Positions 42,405 through 60,714 of a DNA stretch of 64,000 bases are shown in pieces. The notes under the pieces were generated by a model. That model saw nothing but the letters and a program-made list of their open reading frames with translations, was not told where the DNA came from and searched no databases. The position numbers and the translations under genes were made by a program. Within the stretch, counting starts at the first letter, position 1. The number at the start of each line of letters is the position of its first letter. The stretch is taken from the NCBI GenBank assembly GCA_023954155.1, contig JAMLIO010000001.1, forward strand, positions 310,001 to 374,000. Reading direction: 5' to 3'. Source of the stretch: Pseudobdellovibrionaceae bacterium. GTDB taxonomy: Bacteria; Bdellovibrionota; Bdellovibrionia; Bdellovibrionales; UBA1609.

Positions 42405-42437
42405 GAAAGAGTGTAAAACTGGGACGTGGAGGTCTTT

Positions 42438-44660
42438 TTGGCAGTACATTCGGGTTGTCATCTTATAGCAGTGTTAGGTGGTAAAGGTGGTGTAGGCAAA
42501 AGTATTTTTGCTGCCAACTTTGCTATTGCTGTAAGTAATGAGTTAAAGGGTAAAACTTTACTTATTGACCTGGATGGACGGAGTTGTGGAGACCAAAATA
42601 TTATTTTAGGATTACGACCCGAAAAGACAGTTACAGATTTATGTAAACATAGCAGCGCTTTGACTGTTGCGGCCTTCGCAGGATATATCACCAAACATGC
42701 TTCTGGAATAGATTATTTGGCTTCAGTTGTTGATCCCACATCAAGTATAAATATTGATGCGGTAGAATTTGGAAAAGCTTTAAATACATTCAGTCAATTT
42801 TATAAGTACATCATTGTTGATATTGGAAACTCAATGGATACGGTGCAGTACACGATTTTAGAAAATTGCAGTGCTGCACTCATGGTCACTACTCCTGATA
42901 TTTTAACCGTGAATCAAACCAGAAAAGCGATCAATGATTTGGTCACAGCAACTTTTCCCGTGGATATCTTCCAAATTGTAATTAACAAAGCTCATTCCAG
43001 TGGTCTAAGTCCTAAAGCGATTAGTGATAGTTTAAGACGTCCCTTATTATCTGTGATCCCTCAGGATGACAATTTAGTGTATTCCTCTTTGGCAAATGGT
43101 GCCCCTTTCTGTCATGCAAACCCCAGACATCCTGTGGCGCTGGCACATAATGAAGTTATAAGAAAACTCACAGGGGGAACATTACAAAGGTTAAAAGCAC
43201 TTGCACAAAGTGCCTCGGCGGGAAAAACCAAGGAAGAAAAGGGTTCATCGGTTTCTTTAAACCAACCGAAGCTTGATCCTAATATTCAACTTAAGATTCA
43301 GATTCATAGTGAATTGATTCATAAGATGGATTTAAAGAAAGACATCCACTCTACACGTGGTGATGCTCAAAAAGAAAAAGAACTAGAACTAAAAACTCAA
43401 AAGACCATTACAGAACTTGTGGATCAAATGGCAAAAGGGCTTAATCGTGATGATCGCAGTAAGATCATTAAAGAAGTTTTGGACGAAGCCCTAAAGTTAG
43501 GAGCATTGGAAGACTTACTTGCGGATCCAACTGTAACGGAAATCATGGTCAATGGTTGTGAAAAGATCTTCATTGAAAAAAATGGTAAGATTCAAAGAAG
43601 CCCAACTCGTTTTACCAGTAATGAACAGCTACGTAACGTTATTGAAAGAATTGTGACGCCCTTAGGACGTTTGATCAATAACAAAACCCCTTATGTTGAT
43701 GCTCGTTTACAAGATGGGAGTCGTGTGAACGCGGTGATTGAACCTCTGGCGATTGACGGACCGTCTTTAACCATTCGTAAATTTTCTAAGGATACGATTG
43801 GACCAGAAAATTATCTTCAGTGGAATTCACTCAACCAACAGATGGTGGACCTGTTAAAGATCTGTGTTCAACAAGGTTTAAATATTATTATTTCTGGGGG
43901 TACAGGGTCAGGTAAAACGACTTTGTTAAATATGCTCTCGGGATTTATTCCTGCAAATGAAAGAATTGTAACGGTAGAGGATGCGGCGGAATTGCAAATG
44001 AAACAAGATCACGTTGTGAGATTGGAAACTCGACCTGCAGGTATGGATGGGTCAGGGGCCGTCACTATTAGGGACCTTGTAAAAAACTCGTTAAGGATGA
44101 GACCTGATCGAATTGTGGTCGGGGAGTGTCGTGATGGTGCAGCATTAGATATGTTGCAGGCGATGAACACGGGTCACGACGGGTCTATGACTACTGTGCA
44201 TGCGAACTCTCCAAGAGAGGCTGTAGCGCGTTTGGAAACACTGTGTTTGATGGCAGGTATGGATTTACCTGTAAGGGCGATTAAAGAACAGATTGCAGGT
44301 GCCGTGAATTTATTTGTTCAGATTGGACGCTTGAGTGATGGAAGCAGGAAGATCAAATACATCACTGAAGTGGAAGGTATGCAAGGAGATGTGATCACCT
44401 TGAGTGATATCTTTAGATTTAAAGAAGAAGGTTTTGATAAAAATAGAAAGATCATTGGGAGCTTTCAATCTACAGGTACAATCCCTACATTTATTCAAAA
44501 ATTTAAAGATCGTGGAGTACATATTCCAGATTCAATATTTTCTAACGATAAACCAGCTCCTGTCGCAGATAAAAATCCTAAAAGGAATGCGGCTATGGCA
44601 GCAAGAAGAAGACCTAATGTTCCACCTGTACCAGGTCAAAAGAAAACGGGGAATGAATAG
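42438..44660 (+). CDS. Fused CpaE (TadZ)-CpaF (TadA) ATPase
   Basis: A 740-residue protein. I chose TTG 42438 because GGAGG (42428-42432) is 5 bases upstream; GTG 42426 would overlap it. Residues ~1-240 are a ParA/MinD-like domain (IAVLGGKGGVGKS, deviant Walker A) as in CpaE/TadZ, which localises the machine. A ~60-residue linker follows, then a complete secretion ATPase CpaF/TadA: N-terminal LADPTVTEIMVNG, Walker A IISGGTGSGKTT near 486, and VVGECRDGAALDMLQAMNTGHDGSMTTVHAN. In most Tad loci these are two genes. Confidence 0.92.
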   Translation: MAVHSGCHLIAVLGGKGGVGKSIFAANFAIAVSNELKGKTLLIDLDGRSCGDQNIILGLRPEKTVTDLCKHSSALTVAAFAGYITKHASGIDYLASVVDPTSSINIDAVEFGKALNTFSQFYKYIIVDIGNSMDTVQYTILENCSAALMVTTPDILTVNQTRKAINDLVTATFPVDIFQIVINKAHSSGLSPKAISDSLRRPLLSVIPQDDNLVYSSLANGAPFCHANPRHPVALAHNEVIRKLTGGTLQRLKALAQSASAGKTKEEKGSSVSLNQPKLDPNIQLKIQIHSELIHKMDLKKDIHSTRGDAQKEKELELKTQKTITELVDQMAKGLNRDDRSKIIKEVLDEALKLGALEDLLADPTVTEIMVNGCEKIFIEKNGKIQRSPTRFTSNEQLRNVIERIVTPLGRLINNKTPYVDARLQDGSRVNAVIEPLAIDGPSLTIRKFSKDTIGPENYLQWNSLNQQMVDLLKICVQQGLNIIISGGTGSGKTTLLNMLSGFIPANERIVTVEDAAELQMKQDHVVRLETRPAGMDGSGAVTIRDLVKNSLRMRPDRIVVGECRDGAALDMLQAMNTGHDGSMTTVHANSPREAVARLETLCLMAGMDLPVRAIKEQIAGAVNLFVQIGRLSDGSRKIKYITEVEGMQGDVITLSDIFRFKEEGFDKNRKIIGSFQSTGTIPTFIQKFKDRGVHIPDSIFSNDKPAPVADKNPKRNAAMAARRRPNVPPVPGQKKTGNE

Positions 44661-45574: not shown

Positions 45575-47257
45575 ATGATCATAAAATATTTTAAAACAGC
45601 AATGGTGACATCCCTAATGGCGATCACTTGCTCTTTTAATGCATGGGCAATTGTAGATATGAAAGATGCCAACTACTCAGAAACATGGACAGACTTAGAT
45701 TTGGGTGGCCCTGGCTACATCTTAAAAGTTACAAGGACCTATAATAGCCGTTCTATCCATGATGGAATATTTGGCTTTGGTTGGTGTTCGGATTTTGAAA
45801 CTAAGTTAGAAATCACGCCAGAATCTAACATTAAAGTCACCGAATGTGGTGGAGGTATGGAAACTGTTTTTGAAGATGGTTCCAATAACTTGGCTCAAAG
45901 AAATGCCCTAATTGATAAAATTGTAAAAAAAGTGAGAGAAGATAAAAAAAATTCGAGCTTAAAAGAGAATTATTTTGAAAACTTCAAAAAAGAACTGATC
46001 AACAACAATTATCTCAGAGAGGCCTTTGCCACCGAACTTGGATTTAAAGGAAGTATCACTAAGGGTAAATCCTATAAAGCTATTGGTAAAAACGAGGTTG
46101 TAGAAGTTGAGGCCAATTCCTATAAGAGAAAACTTTCTGATGGAACTTTCCAAAGGTTTGATTCCCAAGGTCGACTGGTAGCAATGTATGATAAGAGTTT
46201 AAATTTCATTAAAATCACATACGCTAACAATAAAATTGTGAGTGTGGTGGACAATAAAAGCCGTAGACTCAGTTTTAAATACCATAAATCCAACGGCAAA
46301 GTGAGTGCCATCATTTCAGCTCCTACCAAGAAAGCTGTGAGTTATACCTACAGTTCACATGATCTTGCGACTGTGAACAACGCGTGGGGAAGTAGGTTTT
46401 CTTATCTATATGATGATATGCACAACTTAGTAAAGATCATTCACCCAGATAACACGACTAAAGAAATTGCGTATGATAAGGACAAAGATTGGGTGGTTGG
46501 TTTTAAAGACCAAAAGGGCTGTAAAGAAACCTATCTTTATCGTGATTCAGAGGACGATCCAAGAAACCATTATTGGTCTGAAGTGACTAAAATGTGTAAT
46601 GGTAAAGTGACAAATAAATCTAAATATGAATTTTGGCACAAAGATCGTGCGGATAAGTCAGGAAAGTATCTTGCTCGTGTAAGATCAGAAATCAATGGTA
46701 TGGTTACAGATATTAAATACCATGAAACAATTGGTAGACCAGTATATAAACAAGATGGCACTGAGATTGTCACATATTCTTATTATGCCAATGGCAGTCT
46801 TAAAACAGAAAAAAATGAAAGAGTGAGTACAACGTATTTTTATGATGGTGTTTGCAGTAAGATTTCTAAAATGGTGCAAGAGAATCTACTGGAAAGACAA
46901 GTGGCTTCTAGAAAAGACACCACAGTTTTTCAGTACAATAAGCCTTCATGTAATTTAAAGAAGGCCATGAATAGCAAGGGAGAATCGGCGGAACTCCACT
47001 ATGATGCTGCAGGAAGAATTATAAAAGTGGTAGATCACACAGCCAAACAGTTGAATATTGCTTATAACTCTCAAACAGGGAAGCCTGCTCGGTTGACTCG
47101 TCCTGGCCTAGGTTCTATAGATGTCGTTTATGATCAACAAGGTCAAATGGTCTCTGTAAAGAGTAGCCAAGGCGCAGAAGTGGCGACTCAGGTGGCAAAT
47201 GTATTTAACAATATTCTAAGGGTCATTGGTCCAGCCTCAAATGACATTAGCATATAG
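45575..47257 (+). CDS. Exported RHS/YD-repeat protein in the tad operon
   Basis: A 560-residue protein with a signal peptide (AMVTSLMAITCSFNAWA). The N-terminus (NYSETWTDLDLGGPGYILKVTRTYNSRSIHDGIFGFGWCSDFET) is the usual DUF6531-type opening of RHS proteins. YD-type repeats follow (FQRFDSQGRLVAMYDKSL, FSYLYDDMHNLVKIIHPDNT, LHYDAAGRIIKVVDH, DVVYDQQGQMVSV). It lacks the long shell and a toxic C-terminal domain of polymorphic toxins, being only ~560 residues. It starts 11 bases after tadB and is followed by a small exported protein gene. Confidence 0.85.
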   Translation: MIIKYFKTAMVTSLMAITCSFNAWAIVDMKDANYSETWTDLDLGGPGYILKVTRTYNSRSIHDGIFGFGWCSDFETKLEITPESNIKVTECGGGMETVFEDGSNNLAQRNALIDKIVKKVREDKKNSSLKENYFENFKKELINNNYLREAFATELGFKGSITKGKSYKAIGKNEVVEVEANSYKRKLSDGTFQRFDSQGRLVAMYDKSLNFIKITYANNKIVSVVDNKSRRLSFKYHKSNGKVSAIISAPTKKAVSYTYSSHDLATVNNAWGSRFSYLYDDMHNLVKIIHPDNTTKEIAYDKDKDWVVGFKDQKGCKETYLYRDSEDDPRNHYWSEVTKMCNGKVTNKSKYEFWHKDRADKSGKYLARVRSEINGMVTDIKYHETIGRPVYKQDGTEIVTYSYYANGSLKTEKNERVSTTYFYDGVCSKISKMVQENLLERQVASRKDTTVFQYNKPSCNLKKAMNSKGESAELHYDAAGRIIKVVDHTAKQLNIAYNSQTGKPARLTRPGLGSIDVVYDQQGQMVSVKSSQGAEVATQVANVFNNILRVIGPASNDISI

Positions 47258-57630: not shown

Positions 57631-57792
57631 CTACTTCTTTTTTCTAGTTGTTTTCTTAGCAGCTTTCTTAGTAGCTTTTTTCTTAGTTGTTTTCTTAGCA
57701 GCAGCTTTCTTAGTAGCTTTTTTCTTAGTCACTTTTTTCTTAGTTGTTTTCTTAGCAGCTTTCTTCTTAGTTGCTTTTCTTTTTGTTGCCAT
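57631..57792 (-). CDS. Lysine/alanine/threonine-rich histone H1-like protein
   Basis: A 53-residue protein read on the minus strand from ATG 57792 to TAG 57631-57633. AGGAGG is just upstream. It consists almost only of Lys, Ala and Thr in short repeated units (KKATKKA, KKTTKKK), with two Arg and one Val, like the C-terminal tail of histone H1 and the bacterial AlgP/HC1-type DNA-binding proteins. It is likely a nucleoid-compacting protein. A strong terminator and promoter make it a single-gene unit. Confidence 0.88.
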   Translation of the reverse strand: MATKRKATKKKAAKKTTKKKVTKKKATKKAAAKKTTKKKATKKAAKKTTRKKK

Positions 57793-57905: not shown

Positions 57906-58646
57906 ATGAACAATGATCGAAATTCCAAAATGCGATTTCAAAAATTCAAAATGTCGATGAGTAAATTCATTTATCGAAACAATTTAAAGATAACAAATGG
58001 ATTTGTAATTTGTGTTGAGGTCATAATTTTGACGCTTCTTTTTAATTTTTTGTATGAGTGGAATAAAAAATCGTACAACTTTTATCTTCTGCTCCTGCTC
58101 TACATTTGCTGTTATTACTTTTGGATTCGATATTCGGAACATGCAAAGAGAAAAAAAGTTCTTGAATCCATTCCGCAATTTTTAAGTCTACTTATTATGA
58201 CCATGGGTATGGGAAAGTCGTTTAGATATGCCTTTGAAAAGGTTTTAGGTGCTCAAAAAGGTGTAACAAGTGATTTTTATCATGAAATTTTTAAAAAAAT
58301 ATTCGTACTACGTGAACAAAAGTCCTGTTTTGACGTCCAGAATCTGGATGCTTTTTACGAAAATTTGTTTCAAATCAGCACAAAAACGTCATATCAAATC
58401 CAATCTCTCAAGAATTTTTATGATCAGTGGTTGCTTGAAGATAAAAATCACAGAAAAAAACAAGCCATCATGTTGCCAGTTTGGATTCAAATGGGAGTTT
58501 TGTGTCTATTGTATGCCCTCGTGCAGGTCTGGAATGTCATCAATGGGAGCTTCTTCATAAAAGACTTTGGTATCACAGCGGCGTGGTACGGAGTCGGAAT
58601 CTATATTTTATTCCAACAACAATCTTTAGCCGATAAACGTATTTAA
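57906..58646 (+). CDS. TadB-like membrane protein (second, divergent)
   Basis: A 246-residue protein with two N-terminal helices (GFVICVEVIILTLLFNFLY; YLLLLLYICCYYFWI), a T2SSF-like central part (ESIPQFLSLLIMTMGMGKSFRYAFEKVLG) and two C-terminal helices. The central part is the recognisable half of a Tad platform protein, but overall similarity is low. The strong Cys/aromatic content and AT-rich codons differ from the main tadB. It is followed by the TadC-like gene. Confidence 0.65.
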   Translation: MNNDRNSKMRFQKFKMSMSKFIYRNNLKITNGFVICVEVIILTLLFNFLYEWNKKSYNFYLLLLLYICCYYFWIRYSEHAKRKKVLESIPQFLSLLIMTMGMGKSFRYAFEKVLGAQKGVTSDFYHEIFKKIFVLREQKSCFDVQNLDAFYENLFQISTKTSYQIQSLKNFYDQWLLEDKNHRKKQAIMLPVWIQMGVLCLLYALVQVWNVINGSFFIKDFGITAAWYGVGIYILFQQQSLADKRI

Positions 58647-58720
58647 ATTCGGCCATCATGACCAGACATTTAAAATATTGAGTGCTCTCATCCACCACTT
58701 CCTTGCACACAGATGAAGTT

Positions 58721-59146
58721 ATGAAGACCACCACCACAACAGATATGCTTGAGATGTTGATTGCAGATCTAAAGAGAGGCAAAGCGTTAAGAGATGCTAT
58801 TCAAGATGCCACTCAGGTCAGTAAAGGTCCGCTTCAAGCGGCACTTAAAGAGTGGCATAAAGAGTATTCCTCGGGCAAAGAGGTGGGGCATATCCACCAA
58901 AGATTTCATTATGTGGAGAATATAAGTCTGTTCACTTTACTAGAGTACGGTTTACAAGGTTATCCAATATCGCAAAATTTAGAGGCGTTAAGGATAGAAG
59001 TGGCCGAAAGAGTTCGGATGCGGACAGAACAAAGACTTTTGGCTTTACCTTATAAGATGATGATCCCACTTTTTATTTTCTTTTTTCCAGCACTCATGTG
59101 GTCGTTTTTGGCTCCATTTTTAAGGGAGATGCTCAATGGTTTTTAG
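58721..59146 (+). CDS. TadC-like membrane protein (T2SSF half)
   Basis: A 141-residue protein from ATG 58721 (GTG 58682 is possible). LEYGLQGYPISQNLEALRIEVAERVRMRTEQRLLALPYKMMIPLFIFFFPALMW is the characteristic end of TadC/TadB proteins (REx..E..A..LP.KM..PL..F..PA). The N-terminal domain is soluble and short. Its stop overlaps the next gene start by 11 bases. It could supply the TadC missing from the main locus. Confidence 0.7.
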   Translation: MKTTTTTDMLEMLIADLKRGKALRDAIQDATQVSKGPLQAALKEWHKEYSSGKEVGHIHQRFHYVENISLFTLLEYGLQGYPISQNLEALRIEVAERVRMRTEQRLLALPYKMMIPLFIFFFPALMWSFLAPFLREMLNGF

Positions 59147-59597
59147 TCGCTCTTTATCTTTATTTATGTGCGTGTGCAGTGTGGCTGTTATACCAGCAAC
59201 TACAATAGCAAAAGGCGTGGATTTATCACCGTTACAGTGGTCCACGTGCGAGCAGGAGATCCTTACGGAGAGGCTTCCGCGGACTTGCTTTGTTCTTGCT
59301 GTGGGCGCACTGCGATCGGGCCATAAAAGTCTTTATCATAAGATTGAAGGTCATTGTCTGAAATATGTTTCAGGCTGGCTGCCCTTGGACCCTGCGGATC
59401 GGGTGATTTTGGAGAATTATTTCCCCAAATGCTTCTATAGAAGCCAAGTATTGGCAGAGGCGCAGACACAAAAACTGAGCATTTGGGATGAACGCAGCGA
59501 TTTGGTAAGGTTTTTGTATATGGGTCATATAGATGGGAATTCAAATACAAACGAAAAAAGACTACCAAATACTCTCAAGGCTCGGTCAGGGCCTTAG
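59136..59597 (+). CDS. Exported Cys-containing protein
   Basis: A 153-residue protein with a signal peptide (SLSLFMCVCSVAVIPATTIA). The mature part contains four or more cysteines (WSTCEQE, PRTCFVL, GHCLKYV, PKCFYRS) suggesting two disulphides. It overlaps the TadC-like gene by 11 bases at its start and the kinase gene by 65 bases at its end, a sign of tight coupling. Function unknown. Confidence 0.65.
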   Translation: MVFSRSLSLFMCVCSVAVIPATTIAKGVDLSPLQWSTCEQEILTERLPRTCFVLAVGALRSGHKSLYHKIEGHCLKYVSGWLPLDPADRVILENYFPKCFYRSQVLAEAQTQKLSIWDERSDLVRFLYMGHIDGNSNTNEKRLPNTLKARSGP

Positions 59598-60714
59598 TAG
59601 TGATTTATACAAGTGTATTCGTCGTGATCCAGAGTCGAATTTCCAGCAGATTGTGACACTTAAACAGTACAAGTCAGACAGTTTTAGAAAAAAATTTCAC
59701 AATGAATTGGAAAATCTTTCCAGAATGAACTGTGAAGGCATACCTAAAGTCTTGGATTGGAGTTACGAATCTGACCAATTGACTATTGTTACAGAGTACG
59801 TGGATGGATGTGATCTACACCAATTTATACAGATGGTTCAAAGCCACAATATGAAGGTTTCCGAGAATCTAAAAAGATACATCGTCGAATCTATTTTTCA
59901 GAGCCTCAAAGCTCTACATGAAGCGGGCATTTGCCATGGGGACTTAAAGCCATCCAATATCCTTTTATCTGTAGAGGGCAAAGTAAAGATCATTGATATC
60001 TGTTTAGGTGATCATGGCCTTATCTATGCCACTCCTGAATTTTCTGCCCCAGAGGTTTTAGCAGGTCATAGACCTGATTTTCGTTCGGACTTATATAGCT
60101 TAGGTCTTATCGCACAGGTGCTAGAGTTTGCGGGCTGTAACGACCTTTTACAAATCAAACCAGGGCTGCGTAGATATAAAAAAATAGGACAACTAAATTT
60201 GGGTCAAGCCACCTCAGAATTAAGCGCTCATGTTTGGCAAATCAAATATGAATTTGATTCTTGTGAGCCAGATCATAAAAGTATCAAGTTAAATAGGAAG
60301 CCCATCGATCAAGTGGCGATGAGCACAGTAGAGTATCATGTGCCGATAACACAAGAAGGGTCTATGCCCAGTATGAAGACAGTATCAGAAGAGCTGTTGA
60401 AGATCTATCAGGCTGTGAAGCTCTTCAACCCTAGGTGGTTCAAGCTTGTTGGTGTGGGCGCATGCTTTCTTGTGGTGATGTCTTCCCAAATGCAACGCCC
60501 ACTTCTTGGAATGACCACTGTAAGGTTTCGTTCGCTCAAAGCCTTTGAAGTGTGGGATGCTGGACGCTGGAATAGCGTTCCCTATGATTACAGAGTGTCC
60601 CTTGAAAATCCGAAGACACTTTTATTCAAGTTGCGTTCACACAATAAAGTGAGCAAAGTCAGCGTTGAGGGTAAGCCCTACAAAAGTGAAATAGTCGAGA
60701 TTGACGCGCTTTAA
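59533..60714 (+). CDS. Membrane-anchored Ser/Thr kinase-like protein
   Basis: A 393-residue protein. The kinase domain (1-~270) has a G-loop LGQGLSSDLY (17-26), Lys44 (VTLKQY), Glu58, catalytic HGDLKPSN (H135-D137), APE at 172-174 and RSDLYSLG. The DFG motif is replaced by DIC (D155). A transmembrane helix (FKLVGVGACFLVVM, ~302-318) leads to a ~75-residue extracytoplasmic domain. It is the last gene of the TadB/TadC-like cluster, so it could regulate that machinery. Activity is uncertain. Confidence 0.82.
   Translation: MGIQIQTKKDYQILSRLGQGLSSDLYKCIRRDPESNFQQIVTLKQYKSDSFRKKFHNELENLSRMNCEGIPKVLDWSYESDQLTIVTEYVDGCDLHQFIQMVQSHNMKVSENLKRYIVESIFQSLKALHEAGICHGDLKPSNILLSVEGKVKIIDICLGDHGLIYATPEFSAPEVLAGHRPDFRSDLYSLGLIAQVLEFAGCNDLLQIKPGLRRYKKIGQLNLGQATSELSAHVWQIKYEFDSCEPDHKSIKLNRKPIDQVAMSTVEYHVPITQEGSMPSMKTVSEELLKIYQAVKLFNPRWFKLVGVGACFLVVMSSQMQRPLLGMTTVRFRSLKAFEVWDAGRWNSVPYDYRVSLENPKTLLFKLRSHNKVSKVSVEGKPYKSEIVEIDAL

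Follow-up and report, generated by a model that had tools for sequence, protein, structure and literature searches.

Nearly all Bdellovibrionales genomes searched encode, besides the normal Tad machinery, a second pair of T2SSF-type membrane proteins, a real and conserved variant of the Tad platform. It lies in a 64,000-nucleotide stretch of a Pseudobdellovibrionaceae genome (hereafter the window, meaning the whole stretch analysed), where it heads a run of four ORFs for which we coined the names satB, satC, exp and kin. The homology and fold of the pair, its near-obligate pairing, its operon structure and its coexistence with a complete TadB and TadC set could all be shown computationally. 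Tad/Kil-type machines serve prey killing in Myxococcus and are implicated in Bdellovibrio prey entry. The operon, which ends in a kinase gene, is a candidate for how a signal could switch a Tad-type machine, and provides a candidate kinase for such switching in relatives of Bdellovibrio. B. bacteriovorus itself has the platform pair, and there, as elsewhere, the libraries used here (NCBIfam included for B. bacteriovorus) give it no name. Searches of the openly readable literature for kinase-Tad links and for locus tags yielded nothing useful, and the pair may already have been described elsewhere.

Homology and fold of SatB and SatC

The relationship of the two proteins to the Tad platform was assessed with sequence profiles and with structure. 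In profile-profile comparisons SatC matches TadC (E = 3.7e-8) better than TadB (0.005), while SatB matches TadB (1.9e-7 over 180 columns) better than TadC (1e-4). The window SatC scores slightly under the cut-off against PF00482 (E = 5e-5); the same domain was found in 17/24 SatC orthologues and 5/24 SatB orthologues. Whole-genome searches with the SatC profile return full-length TadC as the second match in most relatives. A Pfam search of SatB alone gave no credible match, its weak hits to DUF2070 and exosortase being rejected as not common to the orthologues. Searches of PDB sequences with the SatB, SatC and Exp profiles gave chance matches or none.

For SatB an AF2 model was obtained (pLDDT 84.8). 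Foldseek alone found no significant match to it, and its candidates were realigned structurally. The best seven rows were then occupied by EpsF, OutF, PilC, SpoIIIAB and TcpE, the T2SSF-superfamily rows having Z-scores of 7.7-9.0 over residues about 84-195, values that helical proteins may reach by chance. These top rows belong to a single superfamily, are well separated from the others and are consistent with the sequence profiles.

SatC proteins are only 141-154 aa long and their alignment covers just the C-terminal half of TadC, so that both the length (about 300 aa) and the N-terminal TM region of a full-length TadC are missing. Taken together, the profiles, the fold and the PF00482 matches of orthologues place both proteins in the T2SSF family: SatB is a diverged homologue of TadB, and SatC a homologue of TadC cut down to its T2SSF domain. 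Both sequences change much faster than those of TadB and TadC.

Operon structure and distribution

The four reading frames of the initial annotation were confirmed, at 57906-58646, 58682-59146, 59136-59597 and 59533-60714, as were the 11-base satC/exp and 65-base exp/kin overlaps in the window. In the window they follow a divergent mdh-sucCD-ndk block and are themselves followed by uppP; since the identical gene order is found again in dozens of genomes, all four are real genes. Features are collected in Table 1. A short Lys/Ala-rich, histone-H1-like protein (MATKRKATKKKAAKK...) is encoded at window positions 57631-57792 on the minus strand, divergent from satB.

Table 1. Position and character of the sat operon features in the window, and of the orphan CpaF-like ATPase elsewhere in the genome
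Feature	Position	Strand	Description
satB	57906..58646	+	TadB-like membrane protein, 246 aa; N-terminal TM helices, one T2SSF-type domain, C-terminal TM helices
satB, T2SSF-type cytoplasmic domain	58155..58490	+	Residues about 84-195, from structural realignment
satC	58721..59146	+	TadC-like, about 141 aa; one T2SSF domain and C-terminal TM
satC, open frame	58682..59146	+	Opens at GTG 58682
exp	59136..59597	+	Predicted exported protein; four conserved Cys (38, 51, 74, 99)
kin	59533..60714	+	Membrane Ser/Thr-type kinase, 393 aa
kin, kinase domain	59563..60114	+	PF00069 match; K44, H135-G-D137, N142, D155; DFG reads DIC
kin, TM segment	60439..60486	+	Probable
kin, stretch after TM	to 60711	+	Aligns with PEGA-like domain of orthologues; decayed in window
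Orphan CpaF-like ATPase	G000:C2:81233-82351 (L139 9234-10355)		About 373 aa; near enolase

Comparison with orthologues puts the conserved start of satC at the ATG, 58721, rather than at the GTG, and satC and exp most often overlap by 4 nt. The exp/kin overlap of 65 bases is confined to the window genome, where the exp frame runs some 40 codons beyond its conserved end; the exp-kin spacing has a median of +12 over 33 loci.

Of 59 Bdellovibrionales genomes, 57 gave a strong satC match, as did all members of the order in a phylum-wide draw. Genomes of other orders mostly give TadC-level scores with the satC profile, a few short, intermediate-scoring ORFs excepted. These ORFs (G083:C48:2881-3261, G062:C9:7630-8043 and G070:C9:10488-10883) may be satC outside Bdellovibrionales. 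Throughout the order, B. bacteriovorus included, satB-satC adjoins mdh/sucCD/uppP/cysK. At 59 of the 60 loci examined in context, satB immediately precedes satC, the commonest overlap being 13 nt; at the sixtieth (L038) the two are naturally fused into a protein of 397 aa. The near-obligate pairing, the overlapping frames and the natural fusion suggest that the two proteins work as a single T2SSF unit with two domains. The fusion gene, at L038 8521-9714 on the minus strand (genome G009), and kin have no exp between them.

The initial annotation had named a lack of joint conservation of the four genes as evidence against its reading; all four are in fact present as an operon at 33 of the 60 loci. 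Of the remainder, 7 have satBC with kin, 5 satBC with exp and 14 satBC alone, while one is at a contig edge; in this set the loci from the mdh scan are biased towards the mdh neighbourhood and some contigs stop before the region. The exp gene is probably under-counted, since it evolves fast and a more permissive context run revealed exp-like ORFs at some of the loci scored as satBC alone (L152). Bdellovibrio bacteriovorus (L117) and the family Bdellovibrionaceae have satBC alone, both exp and kin being absent, so that the pair can do without the kinase. In a tree of mdh and sucC, loci with kin branch on either side of the Bdellovibrio clade, which itself has only satBC. This leans towards loss of kin rather than gain, the two-gene tree and a basal small-genome group making the history uncertain.

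Where satC and the CpaE-CpaF gene of the main tad locus are on one contig, their distance is usually 15-51 kb; it is 15 kb in the window, and 116-207 kb in the four genomes of family f8. This closeness is weak evidence of common function, the mdh-sucCD-ndk block being conserved there in its entirety, and it may only reflect the conserved synteny block. In many relatives, including B. bacteriovorus, an Mla-type lipid transporter that is absent from the window is inserted between mdh and satB; at L031 10701-14554 (minus strand) it comprises two ABC ATPases, two MlaE proteins and MlaD, and similar runs occur in L039, L041, L042 and L048. A run of five ORFs of about 255 aa between mdh and satB in relatives, considered as possible members of the system, were rejected when the scan of L031 revealed them to be this transporter.

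The third gene, exp, encodes a fast-evolving protein with a hydrophobic N-terminus and four conserved cysteines, features that would suit a disulfide-stabilised periplasmic protein. No known relative was found for it; its model is helical and of low confidence (pLDDT 68.9), and a fold search with that model was empty. The kinase domain of Kin, in contrast to Exp, is readily recognised (PF00069, E = 9e-32 for the window protein). Across 29 orthologues the residues K44, H135-G-D137, N142 and D155 are invariant, providing the catalytic Lys, HxD, Asn and DFG Asp of a Hanks-type kinase; the DIC of the window copy retains the Asp, and the L067 orthologue has an intact DFG. The orthologues continue with a C-terminal TM helix and a PEGA-like domain. 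PF08308 (PEGA) weakly matches 6/29 of them, with a best E of 0.0022, and does not match the window protein. Judged by its sequence, the Kin of most lineages is likely to be an active membrane kinase, and the window copy is probably active too.

The main Tad machinery and the question of the motor

The main tad locus, 12 kb from the operon, had been described as lacking tadC, and it had been suggested that the cluster supplies TadC to the main apparatus, a true tadC elsewhere in the genome being named as the evidence against this. The absence is real locally, and it is what would favour such a supply, but the genome does encode a 303-aa TadC (G000:C1:578291-579199), at a distance of about 223 kb from where the main tad locus ends. 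Furthermore, a full-length TadC, mostly 48-62% identical, was found in 57 of the 59 relatives searched. Since tadC is present, supply of TadC as the main role is refuted; with SatC lacking the N-terminal half of TadC and being far more diverged, it is hardly conceivable that the cluster gives the main Tad apparatus a missing subunit.

The tadC gene sits in an operon that also encodes a DUF192 protein and three FHA proteins, an arrangement kept in six genomes (that of the window and five relatives, Bdellovibrio included, from three families). In the window genome this operon occupies L058 4456-10200 (minus strand; G000:C1) and two of the three FHA-domain proteins have TPR. Four of the 10 FHA matches in the genome are at the tadC locus, which makes phosphothreonine signalling at the Tad machine plausible. 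Encoding of FHA proteins with Tad core genes, as seen in Kil-type systems, is thus a property of the tadC operon and not of the sat operon.

Known T2SSF platforms work with a secretion ATPase. Genes for an ATPase, a pilin, a prepilin peptidase and a secretin are all missing from the sat operon. In the whole genome six T2SSE proteins score over the cut-off, two of them CpaF-type: the CpaE-CpaF fusion and an orphan near enolase. The fused CpaE-CpaF was matched in 59/59 relatives. In the window, CpaE and CpaF form one fused protein of 744 aa (42426-44660). As the matching frames are of similar length, about 720-800 aa, in almost every one of the 59 relatives, the fusion probably characterises the order. 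The main tad locus also has, immediately after tadB, a gene (45575-47257) for an exported YD/RHS-type repeat protein, possibly a Tad-linked surface protein.

The orphan is flanked by a protein of about 93 aa and one of about 324 aa, of unknown family. It is the sole CpaF-type ATPase that has no platform beside it, its surroundings showed no T2SSF gene, and it is present in 59/59 relatives; together with SatB and SatC it might form a minimal secretion motor that is entirely separate and has nothing to do with pili. However, its orthologues (50-57% identical) occur phylum-wide, including in orders without satBC, and none was found in the satBC genome G252. The phylum-wide occurrence argues against a dedicated partnership and, no specific link having emerged, the orphan was rejected as the dedicated SatBC motor. 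We consider a separate motor of this kind very improbable. The motor of SatBC is probably CpaE-CpaF or a shared ATPase.

Possible roles and comparison with known systems

With somewhat less than even confidence, we favour the explanation that SatBC is a second, accessory or alternative TadB/TadC-type inner-membrane platform besides the normal Tad machine, tuned by a membrane kinase in some lineages. SatB would contribute its N-terminal TM helices and one cytoplasmic T2SSF domain, and SatC a second T2SSF domain and the last TM, the two forming a PilC/GspF-like two-domain unit. This platform would be driven in trans by a cellular CpaF-family ATPase, and might either serve some of the Tad-like pilins or pseudopilins or swap with TadB/TadC in the main machine. 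In the four-gene lineages, the exported four-Cys protein could be a periplasmic partner, while Kin, anchored in the membrane with its small PEGA-like domain outside, could sense an envelope signal and pass it on by phosphorylating the platform, the ATPase or the FHA proteins of the tadC operon. Of these steps, those concerning the platform and the operon have good support; the motor, the cargo, the signal and the kinase target we infer. With SatBC far more diverged than TadBC, it is doubtful that the pair builds pili under strong constraint.

The same data can be read with SatB and SatC as accessory subunits of the main Tad machine, which would bind its CpaE-CpaF motor and its TadB/TadC platform and regulate or brake them, for instance by switching between extension and retraction, with no platform of their own. 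The full main Tad set is indeed present in every relative examined, the operon has no second pilin or secretin, and most genomes with both on one contig have the sat genes close to the main tad locus. Nevertheless, the pair retains the two-subunit architecture of a complete platform, its one natural fusion fits a unit of its own, and it evolves much faster than TadB/TadC, all of which makes the accessory-subunit role rather unlikely in our view. A separate doubt concerns kin and exp, which could be unrelated passengers in a conserved block, serving perhaps cell-envelope control with no coupling of kinase and platform. The conserved gene order does extend to the functionally unrelated mdh, sucCD, ndk, uppP and cysK, and satBC is found without kin, in whole families even. 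On the other hand, satC and exp overlap in the modal case and exp-kin spacing is short, uppP is often replaced or missing, kinases of this type were seen only behind satBC in the loci examined, and the unit moves together whether the Mla operon is present or absent. That the two genes are mere passengers is accordingly possible, if doubtful.

The initial annotation had proposed an independent platform controlled by the kinase, and the separate, conserved platform-type module, with a four-gene operon in many lineages, bears out the first half. Control, however, can at most be lineage-specific, satBC being without the kinase in Bdellovibrio and others. What ties kinase to platform is conserved operon linkage, and control by the kinase is putative. 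Kin is not the general switch, since Bdellovibrionaceae lack it, but is a candidate kinase for Tad signalling where present. The boldest form of the proposal, an order-wide second minimal Tad-type platform switched in many lineages by the kinase of the same operon and read out by the FHA proteins of the tadC operon, with direct phosphorylation control of T2SSF proteins, strikes us as unlikely.

Among known systems, the closest to SatBC is the TadB/TadC pair of Tad/Flp pili (CpaG/CpaH; KilG/KilH in Myxococcus), likewise encoded by two side-by-side T2SSF genes, with SatB best matching TadB and SatC best matching TadC. Unlike that pair, SatBC is encoded without ATPase, pilin or secretin genes and beside complete TadB and TadC, its SatC is without the N-terminal half, and its sequences change faster. 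PilC/GspF of type IVa pili and type II secretion carry two T2SSF domains per unit, the same domain count as the L038 fusion, and the SatB fold matches EpsF, OutF and PilC. SatBC differs from them in being normally two genes (59/60 loci, with a single polypeptide only in L038), in the extra N-terminal TM helices that SatB shares with TadB and in having no cognate PilB/GspE adjoining it. The Kil system of Myxococcus xanthus is Tad-like, its core being split over several loci and its FHA proteins linked to platform genes (PMC8460266, PMC12075869); from the FHA proteins Seef et al. proposed a phosphorylation/signalling cascade with no kinase in hand (PMC8460266). The split Tad-type core and the linkage of FHA proteins to the platform are common to Kil and the genomes studied here, whereas the sat operon has no FHA gene, and neither a kinase nor a second platform pair is named for Kil in PMC8460266 and PMC12075869. 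Finally, Kin resembles the Hanks-type kinases with TM and PEGA in its cytoplasmic kinase domain, single TM and small outside domain, and is set apart from them by a compact C-lobe (330-450 aa in total) and by the position of its gene behind a T2SSF pair.
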